A DNA stretch of 64,000 bases. Origin: Flavobacterium sp. K5-23 (GTDB taxonomy: Bacteria > Bacteroidota > Bacteroidia > Flavobacteriales > Flavobacteriaceae). The DNA lies in assembly GCF_023278045.1 (NCBI RefSeq), contig NZ_CP056783.1, positions 1,054,001 to 1,118,000 of the forward strand, in the 5' to 3' direction. Below the pieces are notes generated by a model that saw only the letters and a program-made list of their open reading frames with translations, searched no databases and was not told where the DNA came from. This document shows positions 25,455 to 39,455 of this stretch, piece after piece (position 1 is the stretch's first letter; each line of letters begins with the position of its first letter). The translations under genes were made by a program, and so were the position numbers.

Positions 25455-27206
25455 TTAAATACGGTCTATTTTTATATGCAATTCCTTTAATTGTGCGTCG
25501 TCAATTGTAGCTGGAGCGTCTATCATTACGTCTCTTCCGGAGTTGTTTTTTGGAAATGCAATGAAATCACGTATCGTTTCTTGTCCTCCAAGAATAGCTA
25601 CTAATCGATCCAGTCCAAAAGCTAATCCTCCATGAGGGGGAGCTCCAAATTGGAATGCATCCATCAAGAAACCGAATTGTGCTTTGGCTTCTTCATCAGT
25701 AAATCCTAAATATTTGAACATTAATTGCTGGGTTGCCTTGTCGTGAATACGAATTGATCCTCCTCCAATTTCGTTTCCGTTCAATACCATATCATAAGCA
25801 TTAGCACGTACTTTTCCAGGATCAGTTTCTAATAAGTGCATGTCTTCCGGTTTAGGAGAAGTAAATGGATGGTGCATCGCGTGGTAACGACCGCTTTCTT
25901 CATCAAATTCCAATAAAGGGAAATCAACTACCCATAATGGTGCAAATTCCGTTGGTATTCTCAATCCTAAACGAGTGGCTAATTCCATTCTCAAGGCACT
26001 AAGTTGTGTTCTAGTTTTATCAGCAGGACCGGATAATACAAAAATCATATCTCCAGCTTGTGCGCCAGTAGTTTTTGCCCAATTTGACAAATCGCCTTGA
26101 TCGTAGAATTTATCTACTGATGATTTATAGGTTCCGTCTTCGTTGCATTTTACATACACCATTCCAGAAGCACCTACTTGTGGGCGTTTTACCCATTCGA
26201 TTAATGCGTCAATTTCTTTTCTAGTATAATTTCCAGCTCCAGGAACTGCAATTCCAACTACTAATTCAGCAGCATTGAAAACAGGGAATTCCTTGCTTTT
26301 TGCCACTTCATTCAATTCGCCAAATTCCATTCCGAAACGAATGTCCGGTTTGTCATTTCCGTATGTTTTCATAGCGTGCTCGTATGTCATACGAGGAAAC
26401 TTGTCTACTTCAATACCTTTGATTTCTTTTAGTAAATGACGCGTTAGTCCTTCAAAAACATTTAAAATGTCTTCTTGTTCCACAAATGCCATTTCGCAAT
26501 CGATTTGTGTGAATTCCGGTTGTCTGTCAGCACGTAAATCTTCATCACGGAAACATTTCACGATTTGGAAATATTTGTCCATTCCACCTACCATCAATAA
26601 TTGCTTGAAGGTTTGTGGGGATTGTGGTAAAGCATAAAATTGCCCTTCGTTCATTCGAGAAGGAACAACAAAATCTCTAGCTCCCTCAGGAGTTGATTTG
26701 ATTAAGTAAGGTGTTTCCACTTCGCAAAAATCTAAATCCGAAAGATATTTACGCACTTCCATTGCTACTTTATGACGGAATAACAAGCTGTTTTTCACAG
26801 GATTTCTTCTAATGTCCAAGTAACGGTATTTCATTCTGATGTCTTCACCACCATCCGTTTCATCTTCAATAGTGAAAGGAGGGGTCAAGGCAGCATTCAA
26901 TATATTTAGTTCAGTAACTAAAATTTCAATTTCTCCAGTTGCAATGTTTTTGTTTTTGGCTTCACGCTCAATAACAGTTCCTTTTACCTGAATCACGAAT
27001 TCACGACCTAGTGTTTTTGCCAATTCAAATACCGTTTTTTCGGTACGACCTTCGTCAAAAATAAGCTGGGTAATTCCGTAACGATCACGTAAATCGATCC
27101 AGTTCATAAAACCTTTATCTCTGGATTTCTGAACCCAACCCGCAAGTGTAACTTCAGTATTTATATGTGAGGCGTTTAATTCGCCACAGTTATGACTTCT
27201 ATACAT
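25455..27206 (-). CDS. aspS: Aspartyl-tRNA synthetase
   Basis: Class II synthetase that charges tRNA-Asp. N-terminal OB fold with [20 protein letters not shown], motif 2 [17 protein letters not shown], the bacterial GAD insertion domain, and motif 3 [15 protein letters not shown]. The frame opens upstream at a TTG (27212) but the ATG at 27206 gives the usual start [11 protein letters not shown], so I use that; the length is then 583 residues. A -7 box lies about 90 bp ahead. The genomic island begins just upstream. Confidence 0.97.
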
Positions 27207-27296
27207 AATCAATTATTTGTTTTAAACCCTTTTGTATAAAGGGTTGTTCTTTGTCAAGTACCGTATGGTAACCAAAACCGTATTAATTTACGTCGG

Positions 27297-27304
27297 CAAA
27301 GGTA
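27297..27304 (-). promoter_or_regulatory. -7 promoter box for aspS
   Basis: TACCTTTG on the minus strand fits TAnnTTTG. There is no TTG at the -33 spacing, and that position lies within a few bases of the neighbouring island gene's stop codon, so the upstream half may have been replaced by the insertion. Confidence 0.45.
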
Positions 27305-27317
27305 TTAAAAAGGCTTC

Positions 27318-27512
27318 TTATTTTAGTCCTTTAGTTTGAATTTCGCAAAGATGTTTTATTAGATATTGTTTCTTTCTACCGATTCTGGTAAATCGTATTT
27401 TACTTTCTTTTTCATATTTTAGCATCGTCCCTTTGGAAATACCTAAAATGGTTTGCGCTTCTTTAAAGTTGACTGATATTATCATCTGACCCTGATTTGT
27501 ATTTTCTTTCAT
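27318..27512 (-). CDS. Small helix-turn-helix DNA-binding protein, excisionase-like
   Basis: A 64-residue protein with a MerR/excisionase-type HTH (ISVNFKEAQTILGISKGTML, then a wing around RIGRKKQYLIKHL). Such proteins usually direct excision or control element genes. It is the outermost gene at the aspS side of the island, with the tyrosine recombinase at the opposite end, about 12 kb away. A second Met at residue 10 is an alternative start. The role is inferred from fold and position. Confidence 0.7.
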   Translation of the reverse strand: MKENTNQGQMIISVNFKEAQTILGISKGTMLKYEKESKIRFTRIGRKKQYLIKHLCEIQTKGLK

Positions 27513-28068
27513 GCATTCTACATTAATCCCACATCTTTGTTAATGTGGTACAGTTATATGTAGTAATGGCATGAAAGTTTCTTTTTTGAATTATCTTTTT
27601 GATACCCATTGTGGTTATTCTCTTTTATGTATGTCTGAGGTAGCTTGGTTTTCTGCTTTATCTACGGGGTTATTCAGAAAAAACAACTCATCAACTCACC
27701 ATTGATTAATCATATTAAGATTCAAATCAATCATTTACACATAAGAGGCATAGAATAGCAAGTTCTAAATAAATCAATTTTGTATATTTTTGTATATTCT
27801 TTTATGTTTTCTTTCTGTTTTCCCGTAGTACTAAATCGTCAAATACATAGCGATTCTGTAGCCGTTTTTTACAAAATGATGGAATATTGTAAAAACATAG
27901 ATTTTAACAACAAAACTATCCACTGTTGCTAATTTATTTTTTGGACTTCATTATGAAGTATCTAAATTAATTTTAAAAAGTCTTAATTGTTTTTTAGAAA
28001 AATAGAATGATATGCTACAAAGAAGGGCTAATCCGATGTTTTTCTAATCTTGATTACCAATGGATTCA
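27513..28068. other. Gene-poor stretch inside the island
   Basis: About 550 bp of AT-rich DNA with no ORF I trust on either strand, no RNA gene and no strong hairpin. It separates the excisionase-like gene from the repeat-protein gene and may hold the promoter of the former. Confidence 0.4.
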
Positions 28069-28878
28069 TTAAAGCAACCCACTCTCTATTTCATCAATTA
28101 AGATTAGAAAATTATCTAAATTTAGTTCATCATCATCGGTCCATATCTCGAAATATCGTTGATATTGAATGATTAAAGTAAGGTGTTCGAGATTGTTTTG
28201 GATTTGCAACGGCATGAATTTGTGGCCATATTTTGATTGTTGTCGTATTTCAACCTTCATTTTTTCCGTGTCAAAATAACCAGTATTTATGCTACCTGCT
28301 GTAAGGTCAATATAAATAGTTCCGTCAAATTCCTTAAACCCAATCAAATTTTTCAAATAATTTGAATGTGCGTGAAGATCTCCCTTAAACCTTTCGGGTA
28401 CGCCAGTAAAATCCGTTAGTTGGTTGTGAGAGCAGATTAGGTTACCAAAAAAGTCTATAGGACACCCATGCAAAGATTTTAGCCTATTCATTTTGCAAAT
28501 TAATTCTCTTCCGATCTCTGGTGCACAGCCATGCAGATCCGTTAATTTATTACGACTACAGTCATAAGTTCCACCCACAGATTTAGGACCATATTTTAAT
28601 GTGGTCAACTCATTATTATCACAATTGAAATCATATCTGACATGAGTAGGTGATCCTTTCAAAGATTGCAATGCAAGTCCACCACAATTAAATGAGCCAT
28701 AAATTTTTCCAAATTTTAGAGGTATATAATCCAAGCTGGAATATTTGATATCCACATCACCATGCACGTCGATTGCTCCCATAGAACTGATTGTATATGT
28801 TCCCAAGCCCAAAGAGATGTTGAATTTTCTCATGATTGTATTAACCTCAACCCTATTTATGATTCTCCGTTTCCTCAT
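28069..28878 (-). CDS. Leucine/cysteine 21-residue repeat protein, unknown
   Basis: 269 residues. From about residue 63 to 188 there are six tandem units of exactly 21 residues with the pattern (F/L)xCxxNxLxxLxGxPxxxxG, for example FNCDNNELTTLKYGPKSVGG and YDCSRNKLTDLHGCAP. This is a short leucine-rich-repeat-like solenoid seen in phage and mobile-element proteins. The C-terminal 80 residues are not repetitive and contain aromatic and acidic residues. No signal peptide. A second Met (MRKFNIS, residue 16) is a possible start. It lies in the island, downstream of the HUH-like gene; function unknown, a binding protein at a guess. Confidence 0.75.
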   Translation of the reverse strand: MRKRRIINRVEVNTIMRKFNISLGLGTYTISSMGAIDVHGDVDIKYSSLDYIPLKFGKIYGSFNCGGLALQSLKGSPTHVRYDFNCDNNELTTLKYGPKSVGGTYDCSRNKLTDLHGCAPEIGRELICKMNRLKSLHGCPIDFFGNLICSHNQLTDFTGVPERFKGDLHAHSNYLKNLIGFKEFDGTIYIDLTAGSINTGYFDTEKMKVEIRQQSKYGHKFMPLQIQNNLEHLTLIIQYQRYFEIWTDDDELNLDNFLILIDEIESGLL

Positions 28879-28950
28879 TTCTTTAGCTTTAATACCTGCT
28901 AATTTAAAAAATGAAATGCAGAATAGCCAGCGATTAATAACTACATTGAT

Positions 28951-29493
28951 TTACTTATTAGCACCTTTACTGATATAATTGAGGAACTTGGTATGATTAC
29001 CTATTTTTGACATATGCATGTTTTTCTTATAACAAAGTTTTCTTTTAAGCTTAAAGCTAAGCATATCCCTAACATCATCAATAACTTCAAAAGGTGCCGT
29101 TGTCCCTAAATGAATATGGTAACTATTCTCCTTTTTTCCTGTTTCGACGCTATAAATAGTCCGATACGGACAGAGATGTTCACATAAATACATTCCAATT
29201 TGATCATAATAATCTGCTGTATGATCATCATGTAAATTAATGGTGATTTCATTTATATAATAGATTTTTTTATGTGTTTTAAGCCTTCTTTTTGCCCTAA
29301 ATAAATCAATTAGTGAGATGTGTATATGCCACTTATTACTCTTAAATTCGGCTAGTGCGCCATCTTCAATCTTACCTACTTTAATCTTACCTTCCTTTAT
29401 TAATTTCTTAAGTCTATTTTTTATCATCCGATATTTTAGATCAGTGAAATTGTTTTTTTCTATTTGAATAAGCGAGTAATAGATTGCGGTCAT
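28951..29493 (-). CDS. Putative HUH-endonuclease-like (Rep-type) protein
   Basis: 180 residues, unassigned. The C-terminal half resembles single-stranded-DNA replication initiators: a beta strand ITINLHDDH (83-91), then RTIYSVETGKKENSYHIHLG with Glu117 and the HUH pair His126-Ile-His128, then a terminal NYISKG with Tyr173 and Lys176 that could be the nucleophile motif. The first 75 residues look like a basic helical DNA-binding part. The order strand, Glu, HxH, Tyr-Lys is that of Rep/HUH nucleases, but the protein is short and the motif 1 strand is weak. The region upstream has repeated TGCCCC motifs. A decayed replication or transposition gene of the island is the likely alternative to an active enzyme. 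Confidence 0.55.
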   Translation of the reverse strand: MTAIYYSLIQIEKNNFTDLKYRMIKNRLKKLIKEGKIKVGKIEDGALAEFKSNKWHIHISLIDLFRAKRRLKTHKKIYYINEITINLHDDHTADYYDQIGMYLCEHLCPYRTIYSVETGKKENSYHIHLGTTAPFEVIDDVRDMLSFKLKRKLCYKKNMHMSKIGNHTKFLNYISKGANK

Positions 29494-29876
29494 GTTATAT
29501 AGTTATATTTTAGATATATATAAAACATTATAGGTAGCACGGAGGATACGCAAGATTTATATTTTATCTAAAACTATATATTAAAGAGAAACTGCCCCTT
29601 TATCACTTTTTTTAATAAATAATCAAATAAACAATGTAACTATCTGAAATACAACAATATAAAATTTAATATATTTAATTATTTTTTTAAAGAACAGGGA
29701 GGTTACATCGATTGAATGTAGAATACATTCGATTATATCCCAAAATAGAGATAATTCATATTGCCCCTTCTAATTTTCAAGATATTCTTAGTGCCCCCTT
29801 ATAAATTGTAGAAAACGATAATGAATAACTTTCTAGTTTGTTAAAAGTATTGAGGATTTTCTATTCGAAGTAAATC
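29494..29876. other. Gene-free region with repeated TGCCCC motifs upstream of the HUH-like gene
   Basis: No ORF. Holds three similar motifs: CTGCCCCTTTAT (about 29591), TTGCCCCTTCTA (about 29760) and GTGCCCCCTTATA (about 29792), standing out in AT-rich DNA. It also has a 7-bp inverted repeat GAATGTA-gaa-TACATTC at 29714-29730. This is compatible with an initiator-binding or control region; unproven. Confidence 0.4.
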
Positions 29877-30362
29877 TTAAATGCTTGAAACTATTTCATT
29901 ACTATCATCTAATAAATCAGTAATAATCCCCCAATTTTCAAGATGCTTTTCTTCCTTATCACCAAACATACGCATCGGGTTATCATTATGTTCTTTACCA
30001 TTTTTACCTGGTGTCTCTAACCAATTTACATGACCTTTTCTAACTTCTTCAGCAAGCTTCACACTAGAGATTATGTAGAAATTTGGTCTTTCGCCGTCCT
30101 TCTTCATATTAACGAAAACAAAGATCAGGTTGTCACTATGCACATCTTCATTTTTTTTGGACAACAGCCACCCTTTTCGTTTGTTATGCTGATTAGTTTT
30201 TACTTGTATTCCTATCGATTTAAAGGAATCTTCTGATGAAGCTAGAATATCTACACCAGCAGTGTTTTTCAACGTAATTAAGGCTATATACCCCCTTCTT
30301 GATAGCTCCGCTGCCACATAATAGGTCCCAGCTATTCCAGATAAATTTCGTGATATTGTCAT
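29877..30362 (-). CDS. Small PD-(D/E)XK-nuclease-like protein, fourth gene of the defence operon
   Basis: 161 residues, soluble. The N-terminal part reads SGIAGTYYVAAELSRRGYIA, then GVDILAS and IGIQVKTNQ, giving Glu19, Asp38 and Gln53-Val-Lys55. This is the helix-strand-strand layout (E, D, QxK) of the PD-(D/E)XK fold found in restriction-like and Holliday-junction-type nucleases. I cannot name the family. It starts 22 bp after the HerA stop on the same strand, so it should belong to the same transcript as the RM, SIR2 and HerA genes. It could supply DNA cleavage to HerA, or be a passenger; the catalytic assignment is inference. Confidence 0.7.
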   Translation of the reverse strand: MTISRNLSGIAGTYYVAAELSRRGYIALITLKNTAGVDILASSEDSFKSIGIQVKTNQHNKRKGWLLSKKNEDVHSDNLIFVFVNMKKDGERPNFYIISSVKLAEEVRKGHVNWLETPGKNGKEHNDNPMRMFGDKEEKHLENWGIITDLLDDSNEIVSSI

Positions 30363-30384
30363 TTAGTTCTGATCATTAATTGAA

Positions 30385-32565
30385 TTAAAATAAATCATCT
30401 TCTTCATTGTTGAAGTCCTCTTTTTCTTCATTTGGAAGCTCTTCATCAGAAGGCTCTTCATCAGGAAACTCTTCATCAGGAAGCTCTTCATGAGGACGGT
30501 CTTCGTTAGGGCGGTCTTCATCAAAGCTGTTTTTAGGAATGAACCAGTGTTTGCTAATATCACTATTTGCGCTATTAGGTAATGGATCAGCATCATTCAC
30601 TTTGAAAAGAGTTGGGATCTGGACAGAACTACCAAACACCAATGCATGTTGAGTAGGAATTGACGGTAGGCGAAACAAGATATTAGATGAAATGTGTGGT
30701 GTCATCTGTCTTATGTGGTTCAAATCATCGGGGTTTTGTATTCTATGTACAATAAAATTGCTGCATTGCGATAAAACAGTTTTAGATAGTTCACTGGGTC
30801 TCTGAGATGAAACCATTAAGAATAAGCCATACTTTCTTCCTTCCTTAGCAACTCTTTCAAAAATTTTATTTGCTTCACCGAAATGTGAATTCTTATTCTC
30901 AGAAATATATCGATGTGCTTCTTCCAGAATCAAATTTACAGGAAATGAGTTTCTTTCATGAATGGATTTTATTCTTTCAAAAAGCATACGAGTAACAACG
31001 CATGAAACAACTTCAACAACCTCATCCTCTGCGGAATTTAAATCAATTACTGTAATTTGAGTCTGTTTTTTGTTTTTTTTGACTCCCAATAATTCATCCA
31101 GAAATCGTCTCTTCTTGATATCATCTTCATTTTGAGAAAGAAAGTTAAATTCGTGTCTTTCTTTCAAGCTTTTGAAACGAGTGATTAATGAAGAGCAATA
31201 ATCACGTATTTGTTTATTGCCATATGCCTCCTCATGTAAAATTGCAATATCCAGGGCATCTTCCAATGTATTAAATGAAAATTTTGTGTCTGGATTAACT
31301 TCTGGAATTTTAATTCTGTTAGATAAGAATTTATACTCTCCAGATTCTTCCACTTGTTCAATATATTGAATTAATTGATCTGCTCCAACCAGCCCTCCGT
31401 AGTTTACGATTAAACAGTTGTTGATCGTACAATCTACTGTAACCCTATCATATTTTAACTGTGTCAGCACAGTAGCATTAGCATCCAAATAACTAAACTG
31501 TTTAGAAAGTTCAATGTCGACAGTTTTGTATTTATTTAAAATAGATATGATCCTATCCCTTTTAGAAGGACTACCAATATCCGATCTTAATATTTGACCA
31601 ATAGCTGTAGCTAGAATAAAGTTTAATTGCTGTTTAAATTCTTTTGAATTTTGGTTTTGCTCGTTAATTAGAATTGCAATACCTAATGCTTTTCTCAATA
31701 TCGGCAATTGAGTTTTTTCAGATGCTTGTAATAATAAGGCCCACTCATCAATATTTAAAAACCAATGGGGTAATTTGAAACTGTCGTACTCAATTGTTTC
31801 TGTTATATCTTCTTTATATTCAAACGATTCATTGCTTTTTGTTTCATTGATAGAATAATATTTGACTTCAATATCATCATTTCCAAGTTGACTAAATGCC
31901 TTGTGGTATTCACCATTAACATCAAAAAATATAAATGAGGCACCAACAGCACTATAATTATCTTTGTTGAATAGTGTTTGAATCATTGATGATATGGTGC
32001 ATGATTTCCCACTACCAGTATTACCGAGTACGGCAGAATGAGCACCAAAGAATTCATTTATATTTACTTTTACCTTATAATCTGGAAAAATGGTTGAAGT
32101 ACCTATTTCTAACAGTTTTAACTTCGTTGGACCAGTTATTTCCTGCACTGGAATTTCATCATCGTTGTATTCAAAAATAATATCTAGCTCTTCCTTTTTT
32201 ATATATAGTACATCAGTGTATAAAGTTGGAAATATTGATACACCATATCTAAATTTCCCTTTTTGAATAGTCCCAATAGGGTTTATGTCCAGATACTTTA
32301 CAGAATTAGATTTATTAAGAATTTGCTCTTTCTCTCCCTGCCACTTTACATCTGAATCTCTTTCTCTTACTCCAAAAATTTCAGCAACGATGTAGAAATC
32401 TTGATTGGGTAATATAACGTATCCATTTATCTGAGCGTACTGATAGATGTCTTCAAAGCCATTGGTTGTAAAGTTTATTGACTGGTTTAATAATTCAACG
32501 GTGAATTTGTCAGAGTTGATGCTAATTAGTTTCCCGATTACTCTTTGCTTATCATCTTTAATCAT
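30385..32565 (-). CDS. HerA-type hexameric ATPase of a SIR2-HerA defence pair
   Basis: 726 residues. N-terminal HAS-barrel-like region (about 1-130), then a DUF87/HerA FtsK-like motor with Walker A GNTGSGKSC (181-189), Walker B LILEEAHRYI (about 545-554) and the downstream SSQRPSELSKTVLSQC sensor region. In known SIR2-HerA (Nezha) systems the HerA hexamer assembles with SIR2 and both are needed for phage defence. Its start codon overlaps the SIR2 gene by 8 nt behind a GGAGAAGG ribosome-binding sequence, rare in this genome. The last ~50 residues are a very acidic tail made of about seven five-residue units (EELPD-like), absent from the conserved ATPase core. Confidence 0.9.
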   Translation of the reverse strand: MIKDDKQRVIGKLISINSDKFTVELLNQSINFTTNGFEDIYQYAQINGYVILPNQDFYIVAEIFGVRERDSDVKWQGEKEQILNKSNSVKYLDINPIGTIQKGKFRYGVSIFPTLYTDVLYIKKEELDIIFEYNDDEIPVQEITGPTKLKLLEIGTSTIFPDYKVKVNINEFFGAHSAVLGNTGSGKSCTISSMIQTLFNKDNYSAVGASFIFFDVNGEYHKAFSQLGNDDIEVKYYSINETKSNESFEYKEDITETIEYDSFKLPHWFLNIDEWALLLQASEKTQLPILRKALGIAILINEQNQNSKEFKQQLNFILATAIGQILRSDIGSPSKRDRIISILNKYKTVDIELSKQFSYLDANATVLTQLKYDRVTVDCTINNCLIVNYGGLVGADQLIQYIEQVEESGEYKFLSNRIKIPEVNPDTKFSFNTLEDALDIAILHEEAYGNKQIRDYCSSLITRFKSLKERHEFNFLSQNEDDIKKRRFLDELLGVKKNKKQTQITVIDLNSAEDEVVEVVSCVVTRMLFERIKSIHERNSFPVNLILEEAHRYISENKNSHFGEANKIFERVAKEGRKYGLFLMVSSQRPSELSKTVLSQCSNFIVHRIQNPDDLNHIRQMTPHISSNILFRLPSIPTQHALVFGSSVQIPTLFKVNDADPLPNSANSDISKHWFIPKNSFDEDRPNEDRPHEELPDEEFPDEEPSDEELPNEEKEDFNNEEDDLF
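30425..30529 (-). repeat. 15-bp tandem repeat encoding the acidic tail of HerA
   Basis: Seven consecutive 15-bp units beginning TCTTCA or TCTTCG on the plus strand (at 30425, 30440, 30455, 30470, 30485, 30500, 30515). Units 2-4 are nearly identical, the outer ones diverged. The period is a multiple of three, so copy-number changes keep the frame. Confidence 0.9.
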
Positions 32566-33889
32566 TTCCTTCTCCTTTAGTCCTAAGTAATTCTATAAGA
32601 TTTTTATTGGCTTCCTCAATCTTATCCTGTGTATAGTCTGGGAATAAATCATTTGCAATGGTGTCAAAGAAATGTAATCCTTTATGACCATCCTCTATAA
32701 TCACATTCCGATCCGTATCATTATCAACTTCCGTATCGGAGCCTATTATCCATATCCTAGGGTCATTCAAATTTTTTAGTTTTTCAATATTTTTGCGAGC
32801 TGGTTCATATTTACCGCCGACATAATATCCCATATCAGAAAAAATAACCAATCTGAAAGACGGAATGGTTAATGCCTGATATATAATATTATTGATATGT
32901 TCGTCACCAAAACTAAATCCCATTGTTACTAATGTGCTTTGCTTCTGTGTTATCCTTTTTTGAAACTCTCTGAATAAATCAGCATACGGTGATCCTAAAC
33001 TTGCGTTTTGTTTTAACGGTGATGGATAGATCATATAATTAGCTTCAGTCTTTAATCGATCAAAGTTTACATCCTGTATTTCTTGAATGCTAAAAAGCTT
33101 GTTGTTACTTTCTTTTTCTACCCAGTTCACCGAGCCATGAATTTTAAACAAATAGATAAAACTATCGATTATACTCCATTTTAGAGAGCTAATATCCATT
33201 TGTTCCGCAAGTGCATAATTGAAAATCGACGGGTTAAAGAATCGTTCGACAAAACCAGAAAAGCCATTGGTATATGAAATTCCTAAGTTATCCATTGCAC
33301 GTTCTGAAAACAAATCATAATTGGTCGTAAAGACATTTGGCTTTTGCAAATTACTATCTCTCAAAGAAAGCTTTCGGTAAAACTGCTGATACGTTTCTAC
33401 AATGTCACCATCTTCTCCTTTATTCTTTTCGTTTAAACATTCATACAATATATACTCCTTTGTTCTTTTGATTATTTTATTTAAATCTTCGAGGTCTTGA
33501 TCAAAGGCTGATTCTTTAGCTTCCTGAAGTTTTTCTAAATAAAATCTAAAGCTATATAGTGTACCCAAAAAGGTTTCCAGATTTGTTCTAAAAGGCTCGT
33601 TCTTATAATTGATTTTAAATTTTTCTAGAATTTCAATATGTTCAGTTTCAAAAACCTTATCCTTTAAATCTGGATGAATATCATCTTTCGGTTCGAATAA
33701 ATTATCTGCTAATTGCTTCATTGTTGGGATGCCGTTGACTCCTAACGAGCAGCCGGAACCAATCAAAAAAGAAAGATTTCGGGTGTCTAGAATCTTAGAT
33801 AGATCCTTTTTAATGGTTTCCCTTATCTTGTCAAAATCCTGCTCTTGTGTAATAATATTTTGATTTCCTTTATAAAAAAAATGCTTCAT
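32558..33889 (-). CDS. SIR2-domain protein, partner of HerA
   Basis: 443 residues, soluble. Sirtuin-type NAD-binding features are visible: FLIGSGCSLG (Gly-rich loop, 42-50), VFTTNYDLFSERA (Asn190-Tyr-Asp192), catalytic-type His251 in FKIHGSVNW, and VTMGFSFGDEHI (321-332). This arrangement is that of the defence SIR2 group, which hydrolyses NAD+ during infection, rather than the deacetylase sirtuins (no Zn-binding Cys4 module). It is 62 bp downstream of the type IIG RM gene and overlaps HerA by 8 nt, so SIR2 and HerA are probably made together. NADase activity is known of the family, not shown here. Confidence 0.9.
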   Translation of the reverse strand: MKHFFYKGNQNIITQEQDFDKIRETIKKDLSKILDTRNLSFLIGSGCSLGVNGIPTMKQLADNLFEPKDDIHPDLKDKVFETEHIEILEKFKINYKNEPFRTNLETFLGTLYSFRFYLEKLQEAKESAFDQDLEDLNKIIKRTKEYILYECLNEKNKGEDGDIVETYQQFYRKLSLRDSNLQKPNVFTTNYDLFSERAMDNLGISYTNGFSGFVERFFNPSIFNYALAEQMDISSLKWSIIDSFIYLFKIHGSVNWVEKESNNKLFSIQEIQDVNFDRLKTEANYMIYPSPLKQNASLGSPYADLFREFQKRITQKQSTLVTMGFSFGDEHINNIIYQALTIPSFRLVIFSDMGYYVGGKYEPARKNIEKLKNLNDPRIWIIGSDTEVDNDTDRNVIIEDGHKGLHFFDTIANDLFPDYTQDKIEEANKNLIELLRTKGEGND

Positions 33890-33951
33890 TTATACTTGTA
33901 TTTTGATTCATTAGCATACATTACCAGTAGCTAACACAGATTATTCTTATT

Positions 33952-36900
33952 TTAGCTATTCTCCACAATTTTAATTTCCTCTTCACTCAAGCCATAAAGT
34001 TCATACACCATTCTATCAATTTCTCTATCAACCTTATTAATTTCTTGCTTGATTATTTGTGCTTGACTTTTGTAATCCTCAAAAAGATCCATCCAGCCTA
34101 TTTCAGCTTTTTTGGTAAGCGGTGCTCCATTGTGTTTTTTGATGGCCTTGTTTATTTCTTTAATGAAATTAGCAAATGATGAATCGTCCCAGTTTTGAAG
34201 TTTGTTTGATAATTTTTGAATATTGAGTTGTCCTGAAAAATACCGTGCAAATTTCTTATTGATGTTTTTATGTTCAATATTCAGCAATAAAATCATATCA
34301 ACTTTAATTGATAATTCAGCACTTAAAATTTTAGGAATAGGAATAAGTCCAAAATATTTCCATATTAATTGGCATCCATTTTGAATTTGTGTGCAAAATT
34401 TAGTTATTAACCACCATCCCATTTTAGAATTTAGTACTCCTAATAATGCTTTGTTATCCGAAGGAATTATCCACATTGAGTCATTACAATAAAGCTCCTG
34501 ATCGTCAAAAATAAAACAAGGTTTAACTTGAAATTTTTGATACATTATTTTAGGCTTTCTATATAAATCTAAATATTTTTTTGATGGGTTGTTGTCTAGT
34601 TCCAACCAATGATGCTGTCCAGAAAATGGTTTCTCAATGGTTACCTTACTTCCGTTACATTGCCCTCTTTTCTTTAATTTGTATTCGTATTGCATTAGGT
34701 GATTAAAAATAGCTGGATATTCATTTTCTAAATATTTATAGCTCCCAAATGATGCTAATATTATGTTATCAAGGTCAGATTCGTCAGGCTTACCATATCT
34801 TTTTATATTTCTACCCCGTAGAATAGACCCAATAAGTGCGGCCGAATTATTATCCTCCATAATTATTTTATCCTTAACATCATCGGTAATTAAGAAAGCT
34901 TCTGTTAAGCCAAATTTAATTCCATAATATGCTTCCCCATTAACAAATTCGTCTAATGTTTTGCATTTTGCTTTCAAATCGGACAATAGTGTATGTTCCT
35001 TGTTTGATGATATAACCCAAGTGTCGCCACTAAATTTTGAAGTTTCAAAGATCTCTTGTGACAATATTATATTTGTATCAAAATCAAGAATGTCTTTCTG
35101 TAAAGTGGAAACCTTAAAGGAATTACTCGGGTCAGACTTTTGAGAAATGAAAACACAGGGGTATGTAGTTGCACCTTCAAAAATTTGAATATCACCAAAA
35201 TCTATAAGTTGAATCATTTTGTATTTCAAAAAATATTCTCTTAATGACCTGCCATATCCAGCTTGAAACCATTTATTGGGCATGATATACGAGAGCATCC
35301 CATTAGGTTTAAGCAATTCAAATCCTTTCTCTACAAAAATGCAGTATAGATCTCCCTTCTTATTGAATGTTTTGTACCTTTTTTTTTCTAGTGCTTCTGA
35401 TGTTTCTTTAATTTTTTCTAAATTCACATAGGGTGGATTGCCAATAATAACATCAAAACCACCATTAGTAAACACCTCAGGAAATTCTTCCTTCCAATTA
35501 AATGCTTTATCGCCAGCATCCGTTTTACTATCAATCAGTGAATTTCCACATTTGATATTATTATTCAAACTCGTTAGCTTTCGTTTAGGTTGGGCAGTTC
35601 GAAGCCATAATGATAATTTAGCAATTTCGATACTTTCCTCGTTAAGATCAACACCATATATATTATGTTCCAAGATTTGGTTTTCAATGTCGGGGAACGC
35701 GAAGCCTCCACCAAATAATTGTTTGGTGAGTTCGTCTATATAGGCGTGTTCTTTAATTAGGAAATCTAAAGCTTGGTTGAGAAATGCACCAGATCCGCAT
35801 GCAATATCACAAATGGTTAATTGTAAGAGCCATTCTCGATAATCTTTAAGTTGTTGTTCTAGTTTGATAATGGTTGTTGCCTGCCTGTTCTTACGCCCTT
35901 TAGCATATTCCTCATCCGTTATACCAATTTCTTGCTTTTTCTCAGTACAGAGCTTGCCTATGGTGTTCTCGACGATGTATTTAGTAATGTATTTTGGCGT
36001 GTAAAAGACACCATCTTTCTTTCTTTTTGTTTTTTGTTTGTCGAAATCAGTACCTTCAATTTCAGCGTTTACACTTTCAATTTCATTTAGTGAATGTTCG
36101 AAAATATGTCCTAGGATATTAACATCAACTTGACTTTCAAAATCATAAGTTGACAACTTTATAGTATGACGGTATAACAAATCATCATCAATGATAACAG
36201 CATCTAAAATAGCATCAGGTTTGAATAAACCACCGTTATAAGCGAAGATTTCTTCTTTTTTGTCCGTTCCTTTTCGTCCAGTATCTAGATAATTGAAATA
36301 TTGTTTGTAACGATCATACAGAGGAACAACCATGTCTAATTCTTTCAATTCCTGCCACTCCTTTAGTATGGTGTTAATTGAATTTGGTGATAGTAATCCA
36401 CGGTCTTCGGCAAACAGAATAAATAGAAAACGGTCAATCAGTTTTTGTGATTTTTCAAACAGAATTAACTTTGAGGTTTTTTCCCCCAGCTCCATCAGCA
36501 TAACGTTATTGCGGTTTTGTTTCACCAAATCACGATATAGTTCTCGCTTGAAAAGAGAATAATCCGCATAGAAAGTCTTAGTAATTTTTTCCTCCTCCAC
36601 AATAGAATCTTCCTTTATTCTAAGGGGTTTATTGGCGAGTATATTGTCTTTAGACAAGCAGAGGTAGAAGAACTCAAATTGCACAGCAGTAAGCGTAAAA
36701 AGGTCAAATTCCTCGTAGTCAACGGCATTGTTTATGTAGAACCGTAGTTTTTCAAAATTTGAGGTGATCACATAAATACAACCCGTTTGGTTAGCTTTAT
36801 AGTCAAATGCTTGCTGACGTATACTTTCCAGATCTTTTGTATTGGTGCCCTTTAGTTCAATGACTCCTAGTGCTTCACCATCTTTTAAGATTGCACCATC

Positions 36901-37161
36901 AACTTTTTTAGCCCCTTTAATATTCTTTAGCTCCGTGGTAAGGTTGAACTTTGGTGTCGGATTAAGGGTGTAGCCTAATATATCTACAAATAGTTCTCTA
37001 AGAAATCCTTCCTGAAATTGTTCTTCTTTACTGTTGCGAATGTTTGCTTGAATTGCGATATTATGAAAATACCTCGTATATTTTCTGTAAGCTTTTTGAA
37101 CAGTAGCGGTGTCCTGTTGTTGCAAGTATTTTTTAAGGACGGAGGGTTGAAATAATGACAT
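33952..37161 (-). CDS. Type IIG restriction-modification enzyme (nuclease, methylase and specificity in one chain)
   Basis: 1069 residues. The N-terminal part carries a PD-(D/E)XK site, Asp88 in KKVDGAI and Glu102-Leu-Lys104 in GVIELKG. A helical connector follows with GVFYTPKYITKYIVENTIG (384-402). The N6-adenine methylase has motif I CDIACGSGAFL (451-461) and motif IV GNPPYVNL (574-581). The C-terminal ~350 residues look like a TaqI/Eco57I-type target-recognition region (NGCQLIWKYFGLIPIPK). Such enzymes modify one strand and cut unmodified DNA with no separate HsdS. It is the first gene of the island's defence operon. PglX of BREX is similar in size but lacks the N-terminal nuclease seen here. 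Confidence 0.9.
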   Translation of the reverse strand: MSLFQPSVLKKYLQQQDTATVQKAYRKYTRYFHNIAIQANIRNSKEEQFQEGFLRELFVDILGYTLNPTPKFNLTTELKNIKGAKKVDGAILKDGEALGVIELKGTNTKDLESIRQQAFDYKANQTGCIYVITSNFEKLRFYINNAVDYEEFDLFTLTAVQFEFFYLCLSKDNILANKPLRIKEDSIVEEEKITKTFYADYSLFKRELYRDLVKQNRNNVMLMELGEKTSKLILFEKSQKLIDRFLFILFAEDRGLLSPNSINTILKEWQELKELDMVVPLYDRYKQYFNYLDTGRKGTDKKEEIFAYNGGLFKPDAILDAVIIDDDLLYRHTIKLSTYDFESQVDVNILGHIFEHSLNEIESVNAEIEGTDFDKQKTKRKKDGVFYTPKYITKYIVENTIGKLCTEKKQEIGITDEEYAKGRKNRQATTIIKLEQQLKDYREWLLQLTICDIACGSGAFLNQALDFLIKEHAYIDELTKQLFGGGFAFPDIENQILEHNIYGVDLNEESIEIAKLSLWLRTAQPKRKLTSLNNNIKCGNSLIDSKTDAGDKAFNWKEEFPEVFTNGGFDVIIGNPPYVNLEKIKETSEALEKKRYKTFNKKGDLYCIFVEKGFELLKPNGMLSYIMPNKWFQAGYGRSLREYFLKYKMIQLIDFGDIQIFEGATTYPCVFISQKSDPSNSFKVSTLQKDILDFDTNIILSQEIFETSKFSGDTWVISSNKEHTLLSDLKAKCKTLDEFVNGEAYYGIKFGLTEAFLITDDVKDKIIMEDNNSAALIGSILRGRNIKRYGKPDESDLDNIILASFGSYKYLENEYPAIFNHLMQYEYKLKKRGQCNGSKVTIEKPFSGQHHWLELDNNPSKKYLDLYRKPKIMYQKFQVKPCFIFDDQELYCNDSMWIIPSDNKALLGVLNSKMGWWLITKFCTQIQNGCQLIWKYFGLIPIPKILSAELSIKVDMILLLNIEHKNINKKFARYFSGQLNIQKLSNKLQNWDDSSFANFIKEINKAIKKHNGAPLTKKAEIGWMDLFEDYKSQAQIIKQEINKVDREIDRMVYELYGLSEEEIKIVENS

Positions 37162-37280
37162 TGATTATGTTTTAACAATACTATACCAAAATAGCCTTTT
37201 TTCTTTAATATCAGACTTCCCTTAATAAAAAGTTATGCAGATGATATTAACTATTTGAGCGGCTAGTCAACACAAACTTC

Positions 37281-37604
37281 TCATATTTGAGATAATACTT
37301 TTCCGACGTAATTTGAGTCCATAAAAAGTAACCTATGGTTACATAATTCAATTTCCGAAATAAGTCTAGCTCTATCTCCGCTCCGCATTTTCATTTCGGT
37401 AGGGATGTCACAATAGAGCTTGACTCCACATTCAAGTACTACGCATGATTTTCTTACAACAGACTCTTTTCCGTGCCAGACATATAGGAATCTGTCTTCA
37501 ATCGGATTCTGAACAATCTGGGACAATGTAATTTTGGAATTTATGAATTCCAGCAACTGATTAAAGGATATTAAAAAATATACGGAGCCAACACAGCTGT
37601 TCAT
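37281..37604 (-). CDS. Hypothetical protein between integrase and RM gene
   Basis: 107 residues, no family recognised. It starts with a hydrophobic stretch (MNSCVGSVYFLISFNQLLEF), then mixed beta-like sequence with five cysteines in total (for example SCVVLECGVKLYC). It has no clear signal peptide cleavage site. The frame is clean and is spaced about 120 bp from the RM start, but there is no independent support such as a promoter, so it may be an RM control protein, an unrelated cargo gene or noise. Confidence 0.45.
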   Translation of the reverse strand: MNSCVGSVYFLISFNQLLEFINSKITLSQIVQNPIEDRFLYVWHGKESVVRKSCVVLECGVKLYCDIPTEMKMRSGDRARLISEIELCNHRLLFMDSNYVGKVLSQI

Positions 37605-37803
37605 TCTAGCACGAAATGTTAGCCTGGGTTCAGCCAGTCCTTCCTCTTATATGTAATTGTAAAATATCACCCTCGCAATTAAGTACTGTGTATGAGTTTT
37701 TCATCTAATATATATAAAAAATGAATTCTTACTTTTGAGCTATAACCAGATCAATTACCATTTTCCAAAACTTTTGTCACTATTCTGTTTTTGAAATTGA
37801 TGC

Positions 37804-39165
37804 TCAATATTTGAATAATGTTGTTTTGTTTCGGTCTACTATTTTTTTTGCTTCTAAATAAAATATTTCCGCTCGATATAGCTTTTCGACTCTGACATAT
37901 ATGCTTACAGCTGTAGTACTTTCTATTTTTTTAGGGTGTGTAATTAGTGCTATTTTGTCTAAAGGCAAAAGATTATTTGCAAGATTCGTAACTAAAGTAC
38001 TACGCAGGTTATGTTTTGAAAAATCTTTAGATTGTGGTACATTAAAATAAGCAAGGATTTTCTTAACAGTCTTGTTATAGGTCACTGAGCTGTAGTTCCA
38101 TACGGGGAAGTGATCATTAACACATAATTTTTTCACACAATAAGGAAGTGGTATAAAACATTCTGTACCCGTTTTTCCCTGTTCAGAATCGATGTAACTA
38201 TATCCATGTTTTGTGCATTTTGCTATAGGTTGACCACTACACCACGACATTGATTGAGTTCTCATTCCTGTTAGAGATGCAAGAATAATGTACTGCCTGG
38301 TGTTTTCCCATGTTTTGTTCTCAAATTTATGGTTAATAATCTCTAATAATTTATCTTCCTTCAAATAAAGATCGACTTTTGAATTGTCTAGTTTAACTTT
38401 CTTTAGGTCAATTTTTAATTTTTTATGGTTAGCTATCATCCCCAGTTTTTCTCCATTCTCTTGAGCTAATGTACACATTCGAAGCAAGCAACCCTGATAG
38501 CTGGAAAGCGTTCGAGGCTTGTACGGTACACCGATTTTCTTTATACGGTTATCATTTGCAAATTTCCATAAATCGTGAAATATTTGCTCCGTCAATTTTG
38601 CGAATGTAAGTTTACTTCCAATGTGGGTGTCGTATAAATTAATAATCGAATTAACCACAGGTAATTGTCGTACTGTATTGTGACTTAAACACTCACTTCT
38701 GCCTGTCCCTTGAATATTTTTTAGGAAGATTACGTGTTTTTCAATAAAGTTATGGACGGAACTAACAGTACGTGTATTCGCCATAGGGTCATATGCAAAT
38801 GTCTTGACGATGAAATCAATAATTTCGTGATTCTCTGGATGCTCGTATTCATACCTATTAAATAGTGAAGTCATTACAGCGTCAAATTTCATTTGATTCT
38901 TGCGAAAGTCAAATGTTGGTATCAAATGTTCGTTAACTACTTTACTAGAATAGGTTATTCCATTTCCTGATTTTGTGATGTTGCCAAAATACGTGGGTTT
39001 TATTGATACCCCCAGGTTTACATATTGGCATTTCGATGTTGGTATACCGTCAACCTTATAAGAAGGTAATGATATTCGAACCCAAACTGGCTCTTGCTTG
39101 GTTCTTTTTTCTAAAGGTAATTTGCTACTCGGTTTTAAGTAGAAATTATAAGTCAGTCTCTTCAT
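37804..39165 (-). CDS. Tyrosine recombinase / integrase
   Basis: Catalyses site-specific integration and excision of the island. The frame is open from 39198, but the ATG at 39165 starting MKRLTYNFYLKP fits Bacteroidetes integrases better. A SAM-like core-binding domain is in the middle. Catalytic residues, numbered from 39198, are Arg313 (LTGMRTQSMSW), His396 and Arg399 (SKHNLRSTLV), His421, and Tyr434 (AVSIYVRVEK), so it appears intact. About 450 residues from the preferred start. It is the outermost island gene at the right side; the excisionase-like gene lies at the left. No transfer genes are present, so the island is an integrative but not self-transmissible element. Confidence 0.9.
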   Translation of the reverse strand: MKRLTYNFYLKPSSKLPLEKRTKQEPVWVRISLPSYKVDGIPTSKCQYVNLGVSIKPTYFGNITKSGNGITYSSKVVNEHLIPTFDFRKNQMKFDAVMTSLFNRYEYEHPENHEIIDFIVKTFAYDPMANTRTVSSVHNFIEKHVIFLKNIQGTGRSECLSHNTVRQLPVVNSIINLYDTHIGSKLTFAKLTEQIFHDLWKFANDNRIKKIGVPYKPRTLSSYQGCLLRMCTLAQENGEKLGMIANHKKLKIDLKKVKLDNSKVDLYLKEDKLLEIINHKFENKTWENTRQYIILASLTGMRTQSMSWCSGQPIAKCTKHGYSYIDSEQGKTGTECFIPLPYCVKKLCVNDHFPVWNYSSVTYNKTVKKILAYFNVPQSKDFSKHNLRSTLVTNLANNLLPLDKIALITHPKKIESTTAVSIYVRVEKLYRAEIFYLEAKKIVDRNKTTLFKY

Positions 39166-39198
39166 ATTTTTGTAATTTACTGTTATAGCAAAAAACAA

Positions 39199-39455
39199 AT
39201 CAAAAGTTTACAATAACCGTATAAAATTTTCTGGACATTAATATACTTTATTGGACTTTGTTGAACTGTAAATTTTTATATTTACAATGTAATCTTCTGA
39301 TTTGCAATATAAACAACTCGTTTTTAGTTACTTGCAAAACAGCTTTTGACTTCTATACATTATCGAAAATTTTAGACTGCAAAAGTAAACACAAAAATTA
39401 AATTAATGCAAAAAACGAGAAAACTTCAAGAAATTAATTTTATGTTAATTTATTA
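39199..39455. other. Right boundary zone of the island
   Basis: AT-rich, no gene. It contains a minus-strand promoter (39380-39411) for the integrase and no tRNA. The AACCGTAT octamer at 39215-39222 also occurs at 27275-27282 near the other end, in the same orientation, but eight bases are too few to call an att site. Confidence 0.45.
39380..39411 (-). promoter_or_regulatory. Candidate integrase promoter
   Basis: Minus strand TTG, 21-bp spacer, TACTTTTG, a full match to TTG-N17-23-TAnnTTTG. It is about 215 bp ahead of the integrase start, so the leader would be long. Confidence 0.5.

Follow-up and report, generated by a model that had tools for sequence, protein, structure and literature searches.

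A putative two-layer defense operon headed by a type IIG restriction–modification gene on an integrated element of Flavobacterium sp. K5-23

The window analyzed here is a stretch of 64,000 nucleotides (nt) from Flavobacterium sp. K5-23 (contig NZ_CP056783.1, positions 1,054,001 to 1,118,000), in which four adjacent minus-strand genes between positions 29877 and 37161 encode a type IIG restriction–modification (RM) enzyme, a SIR2 protein, a HerA-type ATPase, and a small PD-(D/E)XK-fold protein. The reading that best fits our sequence comparisons, and to which we give slightly better than even chances, is that of an RM-headed two-layer anti-phage operon carried on a mobile element and having an exchangeable second module, here the SIR2–HerA pair. 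We posit that the IIG enzyme, encoded by the first gene, would modify the cell's own DNA by methylation and cleave incoming DNA lacking this modification, and that SIR2 and HerA, a pair of the Nezha type, would form a complex destroying NAD+ when a phage that has got past the first layer is detected. The IIG gene would be the operon head, with other defense genes often taking the place of SIR2–HerA in related genomes; exchange would proceed via the conserved IIG 3′ end, part of which would travel with the module, and the target-recognition region would be exchanged separately. Co-transcription, restriction and NADase activity, the layering, and the route of recombination are what we infer from the comparisons that follow.

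The four genes encode proteins of 1069, 443, 726, and 161 amino acids (aa), separated by gaps of 62, −8, and 22 bp, and the open reading frames (ORFs) lie exactly where an earlier sequence-only reading of the window had placed them. Its identification of the first three products as a type IIG RM enzyme, SIR2, and HerA is borne out by clear profile matches and by the presence of the catalytic motifs. The IIG protein (33952–37161, minus strand) matches PDLC03609 with 999 bits, and profile scans place Eco57I, TaqI_C, and MmeI-type methylase domains in it; it carries the motifs VDGAIL (residue 87), IELKG (101), ACGSGAF (454), and NPPY (575). Nuclease, methylase, and specificity parts are therefore found in one chain, as expected for type IIG, the nuclease part being assigned from its motif and weak HSDR_N/MmeI_N matches. 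The SIR2 protein (32558–33889, minus strand) matches PDLC04084 with 474 bits, Pfam SIR2_2, and the SIR2 chain of a SIR2–HerA entry in the PDB (E 5.7e-35), and contains GSGCS (44), TTNYD (188), and KIHGS (249). Judged by motif, two of these supply the NADase residues N190 and H251; in a description of the Vibrio cholerae protein the NADase residues are N168 and H227 (PMC11559045). HerA (30385–32565, minus strand) matches PDLC04102 with 803 bits, Pfam DUF87, and HerA in the PDB (E 7.9e-47), and has both Walker A (GNTGSGKS, 181) and Walker B (EEAHRY, 548). A consensus scan found no terminator-like site in the junctions between the four genes and one minus-strand site inside HerA; promoter and terminator counts in such scans equal those in shuffled sequence and are hence uninformative.

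The type IIG gene and the genes that follow it

Among 397 Flavobacterium genomes, 48 carry the IIG subfamily, at 51 places in all, and all 51 loci were examined with flanks as far as the contigs and a reach of ~7 kb allowed. The pairing of RM and SIR2–HerA to which the sequence-only reading had drawn attention does recur: at five of the 51 loci a SIR2–HerA pair lies downstream of the IIG gene on the same strand, either directly (the window and L210) or after one (L106 and L211) or two (L201) intervening ORFs. These five loci represent three SIR2–HerA lineages, namely the window with L106 (86% SIR2 identity), L201 with L210 (77%), and L211, between which SIR2 is 28–31% identical. No SIR2–HerA pair was found upstream or on the opposite strand at the 51 loci within the stretches read, and at L243 a HerA match of 20 bits, unaccompanied by SIR2, lies on the strand opposite to the IIG gene. 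A one-in-four test on the five loci gives p 0.001, a value that overstates the case because the five loci amount to three lineages.

The spacing of neighboring genes points in the same direction. Excluding seven of the 51 loci with a short or broken IIG gene, and L179, leaves 43 intact IIG genes, and the denominators are 42 given that one intact gene lacks a neighbor on each side. The nearest gene is co-directional and within 40 bp downstream of 29/42 IIG genes versus upstream of 2/42 (Fisher p 5e-10), so the IIG gene is typically the first gene. Among other complete ORFs of at least 500 aa in the same stretches, 19/70 have such a tight neighbor downstream (p 3e-5 versus IIG) and 35/70 upstream; when genes directly after an IIG gene are removed, the counts are 16/61 downstream (p 2e-5 versus IIG) and 27/60 upstream.

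The genes that follow the IIG gene are of many kinds. Thirty-four first downstream genes are co-directional and within 120 bp, and 30 of these were tested with PADLOC at E ≤ 1e-5 (three ORFs of at most 60 aa among the 34 went untested, and the window's own SIR2 is not among the 30). PADLOC matches were obtained for half of them (15/30): dCTPase (two), OLD/Ari-like (two), ThsA-like SIR2, GajA, PDC-S06, LmuA, GmrSD-like, AbiH, PDC-S31, AbiZ (two), PD-T7-4, and SIR2. The kinds of module thus include Gabija (GajA) and Lamassu (LmuA) genes, and Pfam agrees with PADLOC for the deaminase, SIR2, OLD-type, GmrSD, and AbiH genes. The upstream control covers 20 of these loci, where PADLOC matches were obtained for 3/20 upstream ORFs versus 11/20 downstream ORFs (p 0.019); it takes the nearest upstream ORF at any gap or strand, or the second ORF in L198, L206, and L215.

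These neighborhoods bear directly on a rather unlikely alternative, chance co-location, in which the RM gene, the Nezha pair, and the PD-(D/E)XK gene have gathered in a defense island and are perhaps co-expressed but functionally unrelated. All three SIR2–HerA lineages are downstream and co-directional, tight neighbors number 29/42 downstream versus 2/42 upstream, and the PADLOC matches are likewise skewed; this one-sidedness counts against chance co-location because island clustering alone predicts no side. Several observations nevertheless weigh against the operon that we favor. Half of the tested downstream genes (15/30) have no PADLOC match, the genes at L204 and L217 match generic ATPase models, those at L216, L220, and L224 score low, and the first downstream ORF in L106, L201, and L211 has no PADLOC match even though SIR2–HerA comes after. 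The PADLOC comparison itself favors the downstream side, for which co-directional genes within 120 bp were set against any upstream ORF, the upstream ORFs also being smaller, and because defense genes tend to cluster in any case, island clustering accounts for part of the signal. Two candidates were scored per genome in the IIG survey, so paralogs may be missed; the surveyed IIG loci are related to one another, three of the 51 (L179, L230, and L233) have no downstream gene in the stretch, and in G391 an IIG gene of this subfamily and a SIR2–HerA pair are on different contigs. A Bacteroidota-type promoter motif is absent from the five regions looked at, including that upstream of the IIG gene.

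The same caution applies when the survey starts from SIR2–HerA. SIR2 at E ≤ 1e-20 is present in 21 of 398 Flavobacterium genomes, the source genome included; at E 1e-60 it was found in the source genome only, within a phylum sample of 395 and a family sample of 339 genomes, a cut-off that hides distant pairs, and phages gave three SIR2 matches at 28–29% identity. We examined 29 SIR2–HerA loci, some on short contigs: 16 from Flavobacterium (15 of the 21 non-window places from the E ≤ 1e-20 search and one from another search), two on viral contigs, and 11 on plasmids, selected among 68 records. At 26 of the 29, the neighborhood contains none of the three methylase types for which we tested, which speaks for chance co-location and against the favored reading, and the same is true of a thirtieth locus, L202; at the other 3/29 the methylase is always upstream on the same strand. 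Given these 26 loci, we regard the SIR2–HerA pair as self-standing, as it is in V. cholerae, where an account of the system shows that resistance to two phages is kept when the island, including a type II RM system, is deleted except for SIR2–herA (PMC11559045).

Individual loci illustrate the range of arrangements. In G190 (locus L106), whose SIR2 is 86% identical to that of the window, the order is IIG, a 598-aa ORF, SIR2, HerA, a second SIR2-domain gene, and a Schlafen/AlbA-type gene. In G077 (SIR2 51%) there is a 1-bp overlap between an MmeI-type IIG gene and SIR2, in G285 (SIR2 50%) there is no IIG gene on the 9.8-kb contig, and on a Lactobacillus plasmid an N6-methylase gene precedes SIR2–HerA. 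The G190 ORF between IIG and SIR2 (L106, 7197–8993) has a hydrophobic N-terminus and no Pfam or PADLOC match; relatives of it also follow the IIG gene at L197 and L207, and it may be an unnamed module. In G077 (L107, 9330–10670) a stop interrupts the SIR2 frame, and the frame of the upstream MmeI-type IIG gene is full-length.

Apparent exchange at the IIG 3′ end and within HerA

Comparison of the window with G190 shows that the IIG and SIR2 genes evolve separately, given that SIR2 is 86% identical versus about 50% for IIG. The IIG identity is 61% in residues 1–680 and 29% in residues 681–1000, the latter being the variable target-recognition region (34162–35121, minus strand, delimited by identity to G190). 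The two IIG proteins are far apart in the tree and are not sisters, a placement that, given the similarity of SIR2, also suits chance co-location.

Two junctions carry IIG-tail sequence. L198 and L200 have dCTPase-type proteins that are 90% identical; at the nucleotide level, 90% identity sets in 266 nt short of the IIG stop codon and continues across the dCTPase gene. Over their first 1736 nt the two IIG genes are 82% identical, and the intervening stretch, which holds the target-recognition region, gives no nucleotide alignment. In G190, the ~64 bp immediately preceding SIR2 correspond to the 3′ end of the window IIG gene, with two single-base indels that cancel, and an intact, different IIG gene ends 2.1 kb upstream of SIR2. 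The corresponding tail in the window is at 33952–34017 (minus strand), of which the G190 sequence is a decayed copy, and the motif of this tail is conserved throughout the subfamily. Together these junctions suggest that a piece of the IIG 3′ tail travels with the module.

HerA shows a similar pattern. Between the window and G190, HerA is 87% identical in residues 1–285 and 86% in residues 445–680 versus 25% in residues 300–435, and dN (nonsynonymous divergence) is 0.74 for residues 286–440 versus 0.08–0.09 in the flanks; we give only dN, dS (synonymous divergence) being saturated or undefined. The central segment of the window protein (residues 286–440; 31246–31710, minus strand) shares 46% identity with the G285 segment, the flanks of the G285 protein being just 58% and 67% identical, and the same pattern is seen between G285 and G077 (85%, 80%, and, in the central segment, 26%). 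The central segment is thus exchanged between lineages as a cassette with its flanks nearly unchanged, and we infer that the swapped segment may serve in sensing or gating. In addition, the window HerA ends in an acidic C-terminal tail with a 15-nt tandem unit (30425–30529, minus strand; repeat finding D1), which is absent from the HerA proteins of G190, G077, and G285. The number of these units might vary, giving tails of different length.

The sequence-only reading had left the choice between a layered module and a new composite system. We consider a true composite, in which the IIG methylase would mark self DNA, HerA would load on unmarked or IIG-cut DNA, and SIR2 would deplete NAD+ only then, to be very unlikely. 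The recurrence of the IIG–SIR2–HerA order fits such a system, as do the IIG-tail remnant in G190, which suggests that the adjacency predates the split between the window and G190, and the 1-bp overlap in G077. However, the same IIG subfamily is equally tight before unrelated modules, and in G190 the IIG gene beside SIR2 has decayed, with SIR2 and the HerA flanks conserved (dN 0.08–0.09) and another IIG gene 2.1 kb upstream; resistance in V. cholerae, as described in the account cited above, was kept by SIR2–herA alone after deletion of the rest of the island. The layered alternative fits better, and the fixed composite with a methylase marking self for SIR2–HerA is unsupported because 26/29 loci have none of the tested methylases, other modules are equally tight, and IIG and SIR2 evolve separately.

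A broader extension of the layered reading, which we offer tentatively, is that the IIG subfamily may be a combinatorial platform. In this proposal a conserved nuclease–methylase core would be combined with a swappable target-recognition cassette, and the conserved 3′ tail would serve as a docking and recombination site for interchangeable SIR2–HerA, Gabija, Lamassu, dCTPase, or Abi modules, which would be under the control of the RM layer or come into play when that layer fails; the HerA central segment would be a second exchange cassette setting what is sensed.

The small PD-(D/E)XK protein and the integrated element

The fourth gene (29877–30362, minus strand; 161 aa) encodes a protein of the PD-(D/E)XK nuclease superfamily, as judged from its motif and modeled core fold, in agreement with its earlier description as PD-(D/E)XK-like. 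It has no match in Pfam, PADLOC, or NCBIfam, and among PHROGs it matches only families of unknown function and, weakly, an ATPase. In 28 aligned sequences E19, D38, Q53, and K55 are invariant, giving an E...D...(E/Q)xK motif; the AlphaFold2 model has a mean predicted local distance difference test (pLDDT) score of 86.6, and Foldseek searches with it retrieve SPARDA nuclease chains, I-Ssp6803I, Hjc, and EcoRV (E 5e-5 to 1e-3). Two members of the family, P0079 and P0100, are publicly named "aspartate ammonia-lyase", which looks like a mis-annotation.

This gene is probably an independent passenger. Homologs number 1120 at E ≤ 0.001 among 1153 candidates, and the genome loci, located with an alignment query (a single-sequence query confirmed none), range from Flavobacterium to Patescibacteria and archaea. 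Among the best 80 of 117 genome loci, 36 with at least 5 kb on both sides and 70 on at least one, the family is near SIR2–HerA at one (1/80), HerA having been sought with one sequence, so that distant or cut-off pairs can be missed. The protein is present in 10 of 398 Flavobacterium genomes, the source genome included; four Flavobacterium loci (50–53% identity) have no SIR2, HerA, or IIG gene, and neighbors clustered at 78 of 83 loci yield no family common to more than five loci. The 80 genome loci, the four Flavobacterium loci, and the neighbor clustering lead us to reject the small protein as a general fourth member.

The four-member system envisaged in the sequence-only reading is accordingly not upheld: the counts are 1/80 and 0/4 for the small protein and 5/51 for the IIG subfamily with SIR2–HerA, which is not the pattern of a fixed four-gene composite. 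That reading had also proposed that the grouping be put down to chance if homologs of the RM and the small protein were almost never neighbors of SIR2–HerA; the RM gene clears this test weakly, at about 10% of its loci, and the small protein does not clear it, a result that favors chance co-location for the latter. An improbable further account, compatible with the other readings, is that the small protein works together with this SIR2–HerA branch in particular, for instance as a nuclease that HerA feeds. The 22-bp gap behind HerA would suit it, as would a locus from Bdellovibrionales (L058) where the small protein lies 2.1 kb beyond SIR2 and HerA, and so would two records from the same source, P0005 (74% identical to the small protein) and P0128 (86% identical to SIR2), both with a longest contig of 4708 bp, which may be one contig. 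Against a partnership stand the single occurrence among 80 loci, the absence of the protein behind HerA in G190, and the lack of any neighbor family at more than five of the 78 loci.

The favored operon, together with the small protein, lies within a tyrosine-recombinase element (27193–39360), a 12,154-bp insertion at the 5′ end of aspS flanked by a 14-bp direct repeat. The repeat, TGACTTCTATACAT, occurs in the window only at 27193 and 39347, a spacing of 12,154 bp; the left att-like copy (27193–27206) corresponds to aspS codons 1–5 and the right copy is at 39347–39360. The empty site is preserved in G006 (L194) and G004 (L195), in which the aspS start is continuous with sequence like that to the right of 39347 in the window and the next gene is a 45–48% homolog of the thioredoxin-like gene; two more relatives (L193 and L196) have the repeat core at the aspS start with different sequence behind. 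The one recombinase, the 14-bp repeats, and the empty site in relatives identify the operon as cargo carried by a small integrated element. The "integrase-bounded island" of the sequence-only reading thus stands as a bounded insertion, refined to one tyrosine recombinase at 37804–39198 and a direct repeat.

Besides the four genes, the element encodes the recombinase and three further ORFs, all on the minus strand. The recombinase (464 aa, with a TTG start as listed) has an HNLR motif and scores 24.6 bits against Pfam Phage_integrase, just under the curated cut-off of 27.1, and 34.9 bits against a PHROG integrase. A 107-aa ORF with no assigned function (37281–37604), 119 bp upstream of the IIG gene, has no Pfam, PADLOC, or PHROG match and one weak, unrelated NCBIfam match, and a 269-aa leucine-rich-repeat-like ORF (28069–28878) has weak matches only. 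The 180-aa ORF (28951–29493) has no family match in profile scans of Pfam, PADLOC, NCBIfam, and PHROG; its HxH motif (HIHL at residue 126) makes an HUH-type protein possible, an idea that rests on the motif because the single-sequence structure model is poor (mean pLDDT 45.3). In searches for relatives of the element, there was no viral contig with a match to the integrase and none confirmed for the 180-aa ORF, and the G190 integrase is a distant match to that of the window (25%).

Relation to known systems

The SIR2–HerA pair resembles the described system of this name (Nezha, Gao19) in its adjacent, same-strand sir2 and herA genes with an 8-bp overlap, in its N/H and Walker motifs, in its PADLOC scores (474 and 803 bits), and in its matches to the PDB SIR2–HerA chains. 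It differs in lying behind a type IIG gene, in the exchanged central segment and added acidic tail of HerA, and in scoring outside the NCBIfam equivalogs (161.1/500 and 220.7/850 bits), which are narrow models and do not represent the whole family. The IIG protein is like Eco57I/MmeI-type enzymes in that a single chain combines a nuclease-type N-terminal motif with N6-methylase motifs and a TaqI-like specificity domain. Type IIG RM enzymes are usually described as single-gene systems, whereas the subfamily in the window mostly has a co-directional gene directly after it.

Coupling of RM to a second, often suicidal, defense module is known from type I systems. Defense modules inside type I RM operons include PrrC, DarTG2 (PMC12255303), and TgvAB (PMC11411939), and in Makarova et al. 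2012 (PMC3506569) a coupling of RM and suicide is hypothesized and SIR2 enzymes are also linked to type I RM. In those operons the module is between or beside the hsd genes, whereas in the window it follows a single-chain IIG gene and varies among genomes; the head here is an IIG gene and the scanned island ORFs include no hsd gene. BREX and BREX-related loci, as presented in PMC12839542, similarly combine a methylase-containing core with many alternative backup effectors; however, the scanned island ORFs have no match to PglZ, BrxC, or another core protein, and only the methylase weakly matches PglX models. Among open-access titles and the opening parts of abstracts we found no IIG genes heading operons with exchangeable modules, which is not a claim that none is in print.

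These comparisons suggest that the window operon is a variant of the known coupling of RM with a suicide module, new in its single-chain IIG head and its varying module. If this is true, it would carry the idea of such coupling over from type I systems, which comprise several genes, to type IIG systems, which consist of one. The subfamily would also offer a natural series, with one head gene and many second modules, intact and decayed, for testing functional layering against mere clustering, and the HerA cassette would give a candidate, open to testing, for the part of SIR2–HerA that senses or gates.

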